DNA of 64,000 bases, taken from positions 1-64,000 of the forward strand of contig JAOPYK010000199.1 in NCBI GenBank assembly GCA_025964695.1. Reading direction: 5' to 3'. Positions 1,078-5,025 of this stretch are shown one piece after another. Below the pieces are notes generated by a model, which saw nothing but the letters and a program-made list of their open reading frames with translations, was not told the DNA's origin and made no database searches. Source of the DNA: Streptosporangiaceae bacterium (GTDB taxonomy: Bacteria; Actinomycetota; Actinomycetes; Streptosporangiales; Streptosporangiaceae). Made by a program: the position numbers and the translations under genes. Position 1 is the first letter of the stretch. Each line of letters starts with the position of its first letter.

Positions 1078-2547
1078 TTACGGGCCGTCCGGGGCGAGCG
1101 GGAGCACCACCCGGAAACTGGTGTCACCCGGGGTGGACTCCACCCGGATGTCCCCGTGATGCTTGTTGACCACGATGCGATAGGAGATGTCCAGACCCAG
1201 GCCGGTGCCCTCACCGACCGGCTTGGTGGTGAAGAACGGCTCGAAGATCCGTGGCCGGATCTCCGGCGCGATGCCGGATCCGGTGTCGTGTACCTCGACG
1301 ACGAGCCTGTCGTGATCGCGTTCGGTGCGCAGGGTGAGGGTCCCGGTCCCACCCATCGCCCCGACCGCGTTGTCGATGAGGTTGGTCCAGACCTGGTTGA
1401 GCTCCGCGGCGTAGGCCGGGATGGGCGGCAGCGTCCGGTCGTAGTCCTTGACCGTCCGTATCCGGGCGGGGATCTTCGCCTGCAGCATCACCAGCGTGGC
1501 GTCGAGCAGGTCGTGCACATTGACGGTCTGGTGCGGGGCACGGTCGAGCTGAGAGTACTGCTTGGCGGCCCCGACCAGCGTGGAGATGCGGGTCACCGCG
1601 TCGTCGATCTCCCCCATGAGCAGCTCGGTGTCGATCGTGTAGGTGAGCCATCGGACGGCCGACTCGAGATTGTCCTCCCCGACCGCGCCGGCGATCCGCT
1701 CCAGCCAGGGCGCGTCGATGCCGCCGGCGACGAGGATAGGGGCGAGGTCCCAACCGCCCACGACGTGGTGGTCGTCCAGCCAGTCGCCGAGCACGTCCTC
1801 GGCGTCGGAGGTCGCCATCGCCGACAGGGGCGCTGCGGCGGCGATCCGCTTGACGGCCGCGTCCTGCAGCTCCACCAGGTCGTGCAGCCGGGTGCCGTCG
1901 AGCCTGCCGTCGGCGATCATGGCGAGCTTGTGGCGCATGCCTGCGACCCGCTCGCGCAGCACGGCGGTGGCCCGTACGGCGGCGGCCGCCGGGTTGTTCA
2001 GCTCGTGGGTCAGCCCGGCCGACAGCGAGCCGAGCGCGATCAGCCGTTCCCGCTCCCCGATGATCGTCTGGTTGTTGCGCATGCTGAGGAACAGGCCCTC
2101 CAGCAGATGCATGGCCATCGGGAACCACTTGCGGATCGTGCCCGCGAACAGATCGGCGGGCAGCTGGAACAGCTCCACGTCGGTCACCGCGTGCATGGTG
2201 TTGGGGTAGACCTGCTCGTCGTGCTCGGCCCGGTCGACGAGGTACGCCTGGGTGATGCCTGCGTAGGCTCCCCGCTGCTCGGTGCGGACGATCTCGACCT
2301 CGTCGCCATGGATGCGCTTGCTGAGCGCGACGGCACCGCTGAGCAGCACGAAGAAACAGGTCGCCGGGTCCCCCTCGCGGAAGACCTCGGTGCCTCCCGC
2401 CCAGCGTTCCACCCGGCCGTGCTCGGCCAGCACCTCCAGCTGGTCGCCGGTGAGCGACTCGAACAGGAAGAGCGTGCGCAGCTCCTGCGGGGTCAGCCGT
2501 TCCTCCGCGGGAGGCGGTGTGGCCTGCTGTTCACTCGTGCCGGTCAT
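1078..2547 (-). CDS. Soluble histidine kinase with N-terminal cyclic-nucleotide-binding-like domain
   Basis: A 489-residue protein without membrane segments. Residues about 28-150 look like a Crp-type cNMP-binding beta roll ([16 protein letters not shown]). An H-box follows with His181 ([11 protein letters not shown]), then a long dimerisation helix. Residues about 375-485 are a HATPase_c domain with N-box ([10 protein letters not shown]), G1 box (DTGSGI), F box (FEPFFTT) and G2 box (GTGLGL). It should autophosphorylate in the cytoplasm in response to a ligand or redox cue bound by the N-domain. The gene follows the receiver-reductase fusion by 18 bp, so the two are almost certainly co-transcribed and partners. 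Whether the beta roll still binds a nucleotide is not decidable here. Confidence 0.88.
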
Positions 2548-2565
2548 GCCGCCACCTTCGTCCGG

Positions 2566-4224
2566 TCATTGCGCCTCCAGATAGCGGTGTGCCAGCGATA
2601 CCGCCATCGCGCCCTCACCGACGGCGGACGCGACGCGCTTGACCGAGTCGGCCCGCACGTCGCCGGCGGCGAAGACGCCCGGCATGCTGCACTCCAGGTG
2701 GTAGGGATCACGCGGCAGCGGCCACCCCGCGGGGCGCCGCCCCTCCGTCACCAGGTCGGGCCCGGTCAGCACGAAGCCGCGCCCATCGCGGGCCACCACC
2801 CCGTCGAGCCAGTCGGTCTGCGGCTCGGCGCCGATGAAGACGAACAACCACGAGGTGTCGGCCGTGCGGGTCTCCCCCGAACGCGGGTCGCGCAGTATCA
2901 GCCGTTCCAGATGCTCCTCGCCCTCGGCGCCGGCCACCTCGGTGTAGGGGTACACCTCGATGTTGTCGATGCCCTCGATCTGCTCGATCAGGTAGTGCGA
3001 CATCGACCGGTGCAGGTCGCCGCTCCGGATGAGGATGTGCACGCGCCGGGCGTAGCGGGCGAAGTGCACCGCCGCCTGTCCCGCGGAGTTGGCGCCTCCG
3101 ACTACGTAGACCTCCTGGCCGGCGCAGCCGGGCGCCTCGGTCGAGGCCGACCCGTAGAACACGCCACGGCCGGTCAGGTCCGACAGGCCGGGGGCGTTCA
3201 GCAGGCGGTAGGACACGCCTGTCGCCAGCACCACCACGTGGGAAGCGATCTCGGCACCCCCGGCGAACCGAAGCAGCCGGGCCGATCCCGCGCACTCGAG
3301 ACCGACGACCTCACGGGCGCTGAGAAGTTCCGCGCCGAACTTCAGCGCCTGCCGGCGGGCGCGCTCGGTGAGCTGGGACCCGGACACCCCGTCCGGGAAG
3401 CCCAGGTAGTTTTCGATCCGGGAGCTCTGACCGGCCTGCCCGCCGGTCGCGCGCTGCTCGACCAGAACCGTCCGCAGCCCTTCCGAGGCCCCGTAGACCG
3501 CCGCCCCGAGACCCGCGGGGCCGGCTCCGACGACCACGAGGTCGTAGAAGTCCGCGCCGGGGGTGGTGGTGAGACCGACGTGCCGGGCGAGATCCGCCTC
3601 GGAGGGGTTGGTCAGCGACTTGCCGTCGGAGGTGACGACCAGCGGCACGTCGTCGGGCGTCAGCCCCGCGGCGGCCAGCAGGCGTCCTCCTTCGGGCTCG
3701 TCGGCCAGCAGCCACCGGAAGGGCACCAGGTTGCGGGCCAGGAAGTCGCGTACCGCGAACGACGGGGCGGACCAGCGGTGCCCGACGACCCGGGTCTCGG
3801 TGATCGCGGGGTCGGAGGTGGTGAGCCAGACCTCCAGCAGCGCGTCGACCACCGGGTAGAGGTTCTCCTCCGGCGGGTTCCAGGGCTTGAGCAGATAGTG
3901 GTCGAGGTCGACGACGTTGATCGCGTCGATGGCCGCCTCGGTGTCGGCGTACGCCGTCAGCAGCACCCGGCGGGCCAGCGGGAAGAGGTCCATCGCGGCT
4001 TCGAGGAACTGGATGCCGTTCATCTGCGGCATCCGGTAGTCGGCGAGCATCAGGGCGACCTGCTCACCGCGGAGTTTGATCTCCCGCAGCGCCTCCAGCG
4101 CGGCCTGCCCGGAATCCGCGCGGACCACCCGGTAGCGCTCACCGTAACGGCGCCGGACGTCACGGGCCACCGCCCGGGAGACGGCCGGATCATCGTCGAT
4201 GGTCAGGATCGCCGGGTTCGCCAT
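2566..4224 (-). CDS. Response-regulator receiver fused to thioredoxin-reductase-like FAD oxidoreductase
   Basis: A 552-residue fusion. Residues 1-125 form a CheY-like receiver with the acidic cluster (TIDDDP), phospho-acceptor Asp62 (LADYRMP) and Lys113 (LLKPW). Residues about 150-222 look like a cysteine-free glutaredoxin/thioredoxin-like domain. Residues about 227-552 are a pyridine nucleotide-disulfide oxidoreductase of thioredoxin-reductase type, with the FAD motif GAGPAG at 233-238, NAD(P)H motif VVGGANSAGQAA near 374-385 and the C-terminal FAD motif VFAAGDVR. Where thioredoxin reductases carry CxxC, this protein has SAST (about 359-362), so it cannot do classic dithiol exchange. It is probably a phosphorylation-controlled NAD(P)H/FAD switch driven by the kinase encoded just downstream. 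The fusion type is known in actinobacteria; its reaction is not established. Confidence 0.88.
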   Translation of the reverse strand: MANPAILTIDDDPAVSRAVARDVRRRYGERYRVVRADSGQAALEALREIKLRGEQVALMLADYRMPQMNGIQFLEAAMDLFPLARRVLLTAYADTEAAIDAINVVDLDHYLLKPWNPPEENLYPVVDALLEVWLTTSDPAITETRVVGHRWSAPSFAVRDFLARNLVPFRWLLADEPEGGRLLAAAGLTPDDVPLVVTSDGKSLTNPSEADLARHVGLTTTPGADFYDLVVVGAGPAGLGAAVYGASEGLRTVLVEQRATGGQAGQSSRIENYLGFPDGVSGSQLTERARRQALKFGAELLSAREVVGLECAGSARLLRFAGGAEIASHVVVLATGVSYRLLNAPGLSDLTGRGVFYGSASTEAPGCAGQEVYVVGGANSAGQAAVHFARYARRVHILIRSGDLHRSMSHYLIEQIEGIDNIEVYPYTEVAGAEGEEHLERLILRDPRSGETRTADTSWLFVFIGAEPQTDWLDGVVARDGRGFVLTGPDLVTEGRRPAGWPLPRDPYHLECSMPGVFAAGDVRADSVKRVASAVGEGAMAVSLAHRYLEAQ

Positions 4225-4449
4225 AAGTCAATCAAAACATGTTCCGCGCACCGCCCGATCCGGCGCGGCGACCGGACTTCAGGGGCCCCGCCTTCGGTGT
4301 CCGGTGCCCCCGCGCGGCCGGAGCCGTGATCACGGCGAGGACCGCAGTGGCCCGCCCGGAGCGGTCCCGGCGGCACGCGTGATCCGCCCCGGCGGCCGGA
4401 GGAACGGCGGGCACGACCCCGCAAGGGAACAGGCCGGCGCCGCCTGCGC

Positions 4450-4485: not shown

Positions 4486-5025
4486 ATGGACGGCCAGCAC
4501 TCGTATCCGCTGCGGGCCTCCGACGTCGAACGCGATCATGCTCTCGAGGTCCTGCGCGATCGCGTGGCCGAGGGACGCATGTCGACCGACACCTTCGAGC
4601 GCCGTGTCGATCAGGTCCTGCGGGCGCGCAGCCAGGTCGAACTGGCCGACATCGTGCACGACCTGCCGCCGCGCAGCCGCATCGTCAACCGGCTGACCGG
4701 GCTGGTGTCCTCGTTCTCCTCGGTGACCGCCCGGGTCGAGTCGGCATGGCGGGCACCGCGGCTTCCCCGGTTCGCGCTGCCACCGGCCGGGCTGAGCCGT
4801 ATCCTCATCGGCCGCGCCCCCGGCTGCCAGTTCGTGCTGACCGATCTGACCGTCTCCAGGTTCCACGCGGAGCTCTACCGCGGTGAGAACGGCTGGATGA
4901 TCTCCGATCTGGGTTCGATGAACGGCACCCGGGTGAACGGCTGGCGGCTCACCGGCCCGGCGGCGGTCCGCCCGGGCGACGAGATCGGCTTCGGAAACCT
5001 CACCTTCATCGTGGCGGCACACTGA
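4486..5025 (+). CDS. DUF1707 and FHA domain protein
   Basis: A 179-residue cytoplasmic protein. Residues 5-60 match the DUF1707 (SHOCT-like) pattern, beginning LRASDVERDHALEVLRD and continuing GRMSTDTFERRVDQVLRARS. Residues about 98-175 form a forkhead-associated domain with its binding residues in ILIGRAPGC, VSRFHAEL and SMNGTRVNG. FHA domains bind phosphothreonine peptides, so the protein probably reports Ser/Thr kinase activity. No kinase gene is adjacent. The gene is divergent from the receiver-reductase gene and has its own leaderless promoter. Confidence 0.9.
   Translation: MDGQHSYPLRASDVERDHALEVLRDRVAEGRMSTDTFERRVDQVLRARSQVELADIVHDLPPRSRIVNRLTGLVSSFSSVTARVESAWRAPRLPRFALPPAGLSRILIGRAPGCQFVLTDLTVSRFHAELYRGENGWMISDLGSMNGTRVNGWRLTGPAAVRPGDEIGFGNLTFIVAAH

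Follow-up and report, generated by a model that had tools for sequence, protein, structure and literature searches.

A histidine kinase paired with a receiver-fused thioredoxin reductase-type flavoprotein that lacks its CxxC centres in a Streptosporangiaceae bacterium

Few response regulators, to our knowledge, have a metabolic redox enzyme as their output. Enzymes of the thioredoxin reductase (TrxR) fold are found in several layouts: AhpF, in which a thioredoxin-type domain precedes the TrxR core, relays electrons via two CxxC centres, and the TrxR-like ferredoxin/flavodoxin-NADP reductases of the YumC type work without CxxC, electrons passing directly from the flavin to the partner. In the TrxB class of P2CS/P2RP, a receiver is joined to a TrxR-type domain; SCO7298 of Streptomyces coelicolor is listed in this class beside the histidine kinase SCO7297 (PMC9739842). 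In the reductases named "CNBD-containing thioredoxin-disulfide reductase" by NCBI, among them ATII-TrxR (PMC6544261), a cyclic-nucleotide-binding domain (CNBD) is fused in cis to a core of related make-up. Here we analyse a 64,000-nucleotide stretch of a Streptosporangiaceae bacterium (assembly GCA_025964695.1, contig JAOPYK010000199.1, positions 1 to 64,000), called the window below, in which a receiver/glutaredoxin-like/TrxR-fold flavoprotein is encoded in front of a soluble histidine kinase with a CNBD-like domain. With slightly better than even confidence, we read the two genes as a two-component system whose members are dedicated to each other and whose output is an enzyme.

The locus resembles the TrxB class in combining a receiver that has a phospho-acceptor pocket (D10/D11/D62/T90/K113) with a TrxR-type Pyr_redox domain, and in the order of the regulator and histidine kinase genes. 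SCO7298 is likely orthologous to the window receiver-reductase, as indicated by its TrxB-class listing and by synteny with a universal stress protein gene (SCO7299; S. fungicidicus). The pair is therefore already catalogued, SCO7298 being only listed in the class. In PMC9952706 it is called trxB3, a thioredoxin reductase, and is induced by polysulfide, also without AdpA; it is further up after acid shock (PMC2631018). Yet the Streptomyces homologues examined here all lack CxxC, and we consider the annotation as thioredoxin reductase unsafe. The published work that we found on SCO7298 held no enzyme assay and no phosphorylation test, and a literature search for a fused response regulator/thioredoxin-disulfide reductase gave no match. 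The CNBD-containing reductases share with the window protein the same glutaredoxin-like plus CxxC-less TrxR core (45-50% identity), the motif MSxYL and a linkage to genes for UBP-type zinc fingers (zf-UBP), but have their CNBD in cis in place of a receiver and a kinase.

Both genes of the window lie on the minus strand, where a gap of 18 bp separates the open reading frames (ORFs) 2566..4224 (552 aa) and 1078..2547 (489 aa). Their features, in window coordinates and with the evidence in brackets, are the following.

2566..4224, minus strand: receiver/glutaredoxin-like/TrxR-fold flavoprotein, 552 aa, first gene of the pair (ORF, Pfam, homology searches, orthologues)
3835..4212, minus strand: receiver domain, aa 5-130 (Pfam Response_reg 6-118 and structure model)
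4039..4041, minus strand: Asp62 codon, predicted phospho-acceptor (residue check and family alignment)
3577..3795, minus strand: glutaredoxin-like domain without cysteines, aa 144-216 (alignment, Pfam on relatives, model)
2572..3549, minus strand: TrxR-fold FAD/NAD(P)H domain, aa 226-551 (Pfam, homology, fold matches)
3139..3153, minus strand: GSAST (aa 358-362) at the CxxC site of TrxR, followed by the conserved acid E363 (alignments)
3124..3126, minus strand: Cys367 codon, the sole conserved cysteine (family alignment)
1078..2547, minus strand: soluble histidine kinase with CNBD-like N-terminal domain, 489 aa, second and downstream gene (Pfam, hydropathy)
2128..2490, minus strand: CNBD-like domain, aa 20-140, canonical phosphate-binding cassette not kept (Pfam and alignment)
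2005..2007, minus strand: His181 codon within the invariant HELNNP (residue check and alignment)
1678..1902, minus strand: tryptophan-rich helical insertion in the DHp hairpin, aa 216-290, conserved (alignment and model)
1093..1407, minus strand: HATPase_c domain, aa 381-485, every catalytic box present (Pfam and alignment)

The association of the two genes was followed by tblastn in 80 full-length orthologues of the receiver-reductase (67-83% identity) from named genomes. A kinase gene was present downstream and on the same strand in all 80; it was directly adjacent in 79 and 3.8 kb away in one Pseudonocardia metagenome-assembled genome (L071). Such constancy at this level of identity excludes chance pairing. 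Among 118 actinomycete genomes the kinase was found in 38, all of which also carried the receiver-reductase. Further pairs were located on plasmids of Deinococcus aetherius, Gloeothece, Nostoc, Caballeronia and Paraburkholderia, the last in an unannotated record where the kinase was assigned by tblastn. Judged from this distribution the pair is ancient and reaches beyond actinobacteria into cyanobacteria, Deinococcus and Burkholderiaceae, and we take the two proteins to be almost certainly dedicated to each other. A preliminary description of the locus had already given the 18 bp gap and pointed to Asp62, His181, a CNBD-like domain and a full HATPase, all of which held up on coordinates, Pfam and residue checks; its placing of such fusions in actinobacteria was too narrow.

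Several genes recur around these pairs. The cyanobacterial plasmid pairs (L092, L094, L097) adjoin glgX and an AGE epimerase gene in what looks like a stress island, and the neighbourhoods of Nostoc plasmid pairs also carry genes for low-temperature-requirement protein A or glucose dehydrogenase. In Deinococcus an extra CNBD kinase-like gene (L091 2924-4321) is situated upstream of the pair at a distance of a few kb, and in Caballeronia one (L093 5376-6806) is immediately upstream; either product may be an additional kinase for the receiver. A search for constant neighbours other than zf-UBP turned up, among others, genes for AlkB, CBS and universal stress protein, each of them recurring beside the pair in single lineages only.

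The receiver pocket (D10/D11, D62, T90, K113) was scored against the presence of the kinase in 140 family members. It was intact with a kinase in 115 members and not intact without one in 20, leaving 3 intact receivers without and 2 non-intact receivers with a kinase. The two latter (L198, L199) are genes cut by contig ends. Two of the three former (L043, L062) lie on contigs that end inside the kinase, of which a part is seen, and the third (L094) is from a Nostoc plasmid on which the reductase gene is followed by one for a transposase. The 20 members without pocket and kinase consist of 14 degenerate receivers (L150-L157, L181-L186), whose reductase is likewise CxxC-less, and of 6 receiver-less proteins, 4 from the CNBD branch and 2 of plain glutaredoxin-TrxR type; Pfam detected Response_reg in none of the 6 degenerate receivers scanned. 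The two genes stay adjacent and occur together, and the acid pocket is lost wherever there is no kinase; these observations strongly imply that the kinase phosphorylates Asp62. The invariant HELNNP and the ATP-binding boxes, taken with the receiver-kinase association, support His181 as the donor, which is the most economical reading. The phosphorelay proposed in the preliminary description is thus strengthened, and control of the receiver-reductase by phosphorylation appears very probable.

In the kinase itself, Pfam identified cNMP_binding at 48-137 (1.5e-11) and HATPase_c at 381-485 (1e-25). The H, N, G1, F and G2 boxes of histidine kinases are present in the alignment, with the HELNNP around His181 invariant across the aligned family, a NLIDNA region and DTGx. 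Throughout this family a conserved helical insertion of ~75 residues (about 216-290) splits the DHp hairpin. Neither protein of the pair showed a transmembrane segment (maximum 19-residue hydropathy 1.3 and 1.5). The CNBD is matched by Pfam in its fold only: the conserved Glu and Arg of the phosphate-binding cassette are missing, with G-x-Y-x-G-A instead of GEL...R. Classic cyclic nucleotide sensing by this kinase is not supported and was rejected as the default, and cAMP should not be assumed to be the ligand because the Glu/Arg cassette is lacking. The actinobacterial CNBD-containing reductases do keep a GEL...R-like cassette and can adjoin clpB and a thioredoxin gene. The kinase CNBD is homologous to the one fused in these sister reductases (hhalign probability 98.8).

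The 552-aa protein matched Response_reg at 6-118 (2.3e-13) and Pyr_redox_2 at 227-538 (1.2e-28). Its only cysteines are at positions 311, 367 and 512, so that the middle domain is cysteine-free, as had been described. This domain shows the glutaredoxin-fold order beta-alpha-beta-alpha-beta-beta-alpha in the structure model, and the corresponding part of two relatives (L159, L160) matches Pfam Glutaredoxin. The CxxC or CxxS that glutaredoxins and mycoredoxins have at the start of helix 1 is replaced by RWSAPS, with 0 Cys in aa 144-216, compared to WC(S/P)DC in the two relatives. In the TrxR domain SAST (359-362) occupies the CxxC position, as noted before, in a register relative to TrxRs that is uncertain by one residue (a start at G358 when aligned from the left or an end at T362 from the right). 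None of the 121 receiver-type members carries a CxxC in the TrxR domain, where the site is mostly G(S/A)xx(T/S), and in nearly all of them the glutaredoxin site is (R/Q)(W)(S/A)xx(S/T). Cys367 is the only widely conserved cysteine, kept in 118/121 receiver-type, 3/4 CNBD-branch and 1/14 pseudo-receiver members. An alternative cysteine pair that could serve as redox centre was sought in the alignment of the 121 receiver-type members and none was found, Cys367 alone being conserved; this agrees with the preliminary description.

The cofactor sites are preserved. The FAD motif GxGxxG, the nucleotide motif GGxNSA (GGxxxA in TrxRs) and the GDV and KR motifs are invariant or nearly so in the receiver and pseudo-receiver branches. 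Position 363 is E or D in 120/121 receiver-type members; Glu363 aligns with the Asp that follows CxxC in TrxR, which we take to be the catalytic acid of the E. coli enzyme. Low-Mr TrxRs (TIGR01292) share the fold and the FAD and NAD(P)H motifs at about 30% identity, but the window protein lacks their CxxC and their HRRxxxR nucleotide motif and scores 197.4 bits against a cut-off of 343.45. AhpF is the best multi-domain fold match, having an N-terminal thioredoxin-type domain before the TrxR core, but the window protein has no CxxC centre and an added receiver, and scores 156.2 bits against the TIGR03140 cut-off of 502.9. By sequence it lies far nearer to TrxR (3e-44) than to chains of FNR (about 1e-12), and its glutaredoxin-like and receiver domains are extra relative to the YumC type. 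The HRRxxxR motif for NADPH, as read in the host genome's own TrxR, is replaced in the family by R(G/A/S)...MSxYL, so that either NADH or NADPH may be used. Because the cofactor sites are kept across phyla, we regard the protein with good confidence as an active NAD(P)H flavoenzyme that would work without a dithiol relay.

The loss of both redox centres, together with a strong linkage to a small binding-type domain (zf-UBP, see below), could also be explained by a pseudo-enzyme, in which the TrxR fold, dependent on FAD/NAD(P), would act only as scaffold or dimeriser and, on phosphorylation, bind a partner, for instance zf-UBP. We find this very unlikely, the FAD, NAD(P)H and acid positions being near-invariant across phyla, beyond what binding alone would need. 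Alternatively, the flavoprotein could be an input: the receiver would read the redox state of flavin/NAD(P)H and tune the kinase, or would act as a phosphate sink while the kinase addresses another regulator according to cell redox. A sensor without need of fast turnover might well lose both CxxC centres and keep its cofactor sites, no DNA-binding output is attached, and the family also occurs as pseudo-receivers without kinase. However, the neighbourhoods examined showed no consistent linkage of a second response regulator to the pair, the CNBD-TrxR sister has its sensor domain ahead of the same core, as fits a controlled core, and the acid kept at 363 suggests chemistry. An input role is thus doubtful, and we lean towards the reductase as output rather than sensor.

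In a tree rooted on the host genome's own thioredoxin reductase, the CxxC-less proteins formed a clade comprising the CNBD, pseudo-receiver and receiver branches. Outside it stood L159 (4098-5318) and L160 (4333-5583, minus strand), which retain CxxC in both the glutaredoxin domain (WCSDC, WCPDC) and the TrxR domain (CATC), and which are candidates for a living link to the ancestral enzyme. Both thiol centres were likely lost jointly and once, from a glutaredoxin-TrxR ancestor; this is not proven, since the support of the CxxC-less node is 0.77. The host genome has a paralogue of the CNBD branch (L009 3651-5417, minus strand; C236), with CNBD in cis, glutaredoxin-like domain and CxxC-less TrxR core (AATLSEA), located directly after a cluster of zinc-type thioredoxin, clpB and dnaK-type chaperone genes. 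As read from these sequences, control of one and the same reductase core is exerted either through a CNBD in cis or, in trans, through a CNBD kinase.

The CNBD branch bears on a further alternative, namely that the window protein is still a thiol, disulfide or persulfide reductase, as the name trxB3 implies, acting by direct hydride transfer from flavin to disulfide or via the single Cys367. In PMC6544261, ATII-TrxR is reported to reduce 5,5'-dithiobis(2-nitrobenzoic acid) (DTNB) and thioredoxin with NADPH and NADH (kcat for thioredoxin 28.4 per s), is 87% identical to a Cupriavidus metallidurans protein, and has its redox centres named as Cys206-Cys223 and Cys376-Cys467. The C. metallidurans CH34 homologue, likely the protein of that comparison, reads GVYYWASPVEAKLC at the site, without CxxC (WASP instead) and with the Cys367 equivalent kept. 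At an offset of 28, Cys206, Cys223 and Cys376 fall on CH34 cysteines 234, 251 and 404, of which Cys404 corresponds to Cys367, and Cys467 is unmatched; via this homologue, CxxC is probably absent from ATII-TrxR too. The polysulfide induction of SCO7298 and the operons that the CNBD branch can share with thioredoxin would also suit a thiol reductase. On the other side, a second conserved Cys is found nowhere in the protein, the cysteines of the glutaredoxin and TrxR domains were lost together, and Cys367 is missing in 13/14 pseudo-receiver relatives. The accessible text of PMC6544261 is silent on the missing CxxC, and carry-over of host TrxR is not excluded there; in that of PMC9952706, SCO7298 is not among the genes overexpressed for H2S release. 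We therefore hold a thiol reductase to be an unlikely explanation. The earlier statement that the output cannot be classic disulfide reduction stands as regards the CxxC dithiol relay, which is gone, but is too strong given the ATII-TrxR activities and the Cupriavidus homologue without CxxC.

A partner of the reductase core was suggested by gene neighbourhoods. UBP zinc fingers are best known as readers of the ubiquitin tail in eukaryotes, and our literature search on their role or partners in bacteria found no paper. In Tsukamurella and Streptomyces records a zf-UBP gene overlaps the stop of the kinase gene, and a chaperone operon of S. angustmyceticus reads dnaJ, cbpM, clpB, trxA, zf-UBP, CNBD-TrxR. 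The 118 genomes contain 101 zf-UBP genes, of which 22 have a family reductase no more than 5 kb away, compared to about 0.3 expected from a rough uniform model with 5 Mb genomes. The linked reductase loci include 13 with a receiver and 8 of the CNBD branch. zf-UBP occurs in 37/38 pair-bearing genomes versus 31/80 others, a difference that is significant also among genomes of at least 5 Mb. Because the linkage tracks the reductase core and not the input domain, the zf-UBP protein is the best genomic candidate for a partner of this core.

On the preferred reading of a dedicated pair, a signal at the CNBD-like domain of the kinase, with a ligand that is probably not plain cAMP, would set autophosphorylation at His181, and the phosphoryl group would be transferred to Asp62. 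The phosphorylated receiver would then rearrange the attached glutaredoxin-like/TrxR-fold flavoenzyme, which should still bind FAD and NAD(P)H but pass no electrons through a CxxC. Electrons would leave directly from the flavin, past a pocket of small residues (GSAxT) and the acid Glu363, to a non-CxxC acceptor. Candidates for this acceptor are small oxidants (polysulfide/persulfide, disulfide, quinone, oxygen) and partner proteins, for instance zf-UBP. Some observations weigh against this scheme. Thirteen of the degenerate receivers share a clade and the remaining one, L181, whose K113 is Met, stands alone, so that the coupling of receiver degeneration to kinase loss reflects about two independent losses in the tree. 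The thioredoxin reduction reported for ATII-TrxR leaves thiol substrates possible. Finally, the four zf-UBP genes of the host genome (L110 4814-5230, minus strand; L111 4657-4911, minus strand; L112 4380-4742; L113 4132-4707) all lie away from the pair; the L110 product is 64% identical to the operonic type, and a LysR-type regulator gene was seen near L112 and near L113.

A second, divergent NAD kinase paralogue was found in 16/118 genomes, 15 of them pair-bearing (p 5e-8, first and second copies being sorted by eye from E-values), and its gene adjoins the pair at L035, L038, L048, L050, L052, L082, L088, L089 and L178. The association weakens with genome size (p 0.04 at >= 5 Mb, 0.12 at >= 6 Mb), which explains part of it, and we treat it as a lead only. 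In the window, the divergent upstream gene (4486-5025, plus strand) encodes a protein that is FHA-domain-like with a DUF1707-like N-terminus, as judged by eye, possibly a phospho-threonine signalling neighbour. A plus-strand ORF of 1057 codons (1156-4329), antisense to both genes, failed the codon-composition filter and was treated as spurious, being taken for an artefact of GC-rich codon patterns, as its codon position 1 opposes the GC-rich third positions of the real genes. The two structure models reached a mean pLDDT of 78 and 76, with the flavin loop 259-281 below 50, and we therefore claim no flavin distances.

Three results appear to be new within the searchable literature, namely the disappearance of both thiol centres together, the correlation between an intact receiver and the kinase, and the zf-UBP linkage; the zf-UBP partner and the sister family with CNBD fused in cis extend the preliminary description. 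These results lead to testable statements: that Asp62 is the acceptor, that one core answers either to a cis-fused CNBD or to a separate CNBD kinase acting in trans, and that zf-UBP is its genomic partner. More tentatively, and as a possibility we would not rank high, the pair may be one input version of a so far unrecognised bacterial redox module made of a CxxC-less glutaredoxin-TrxR flavoenzyme and a small cysteine-rich zf-UBP partner, switched by phosphorelay or by a fused CNBD, in which NAD(P)H would be used on zf-UBP or its ligand as a stress output that bypasses transcription. The zf-UBP linkage provides a handle on both the reductase and the bacterial UBP zinc fingers.

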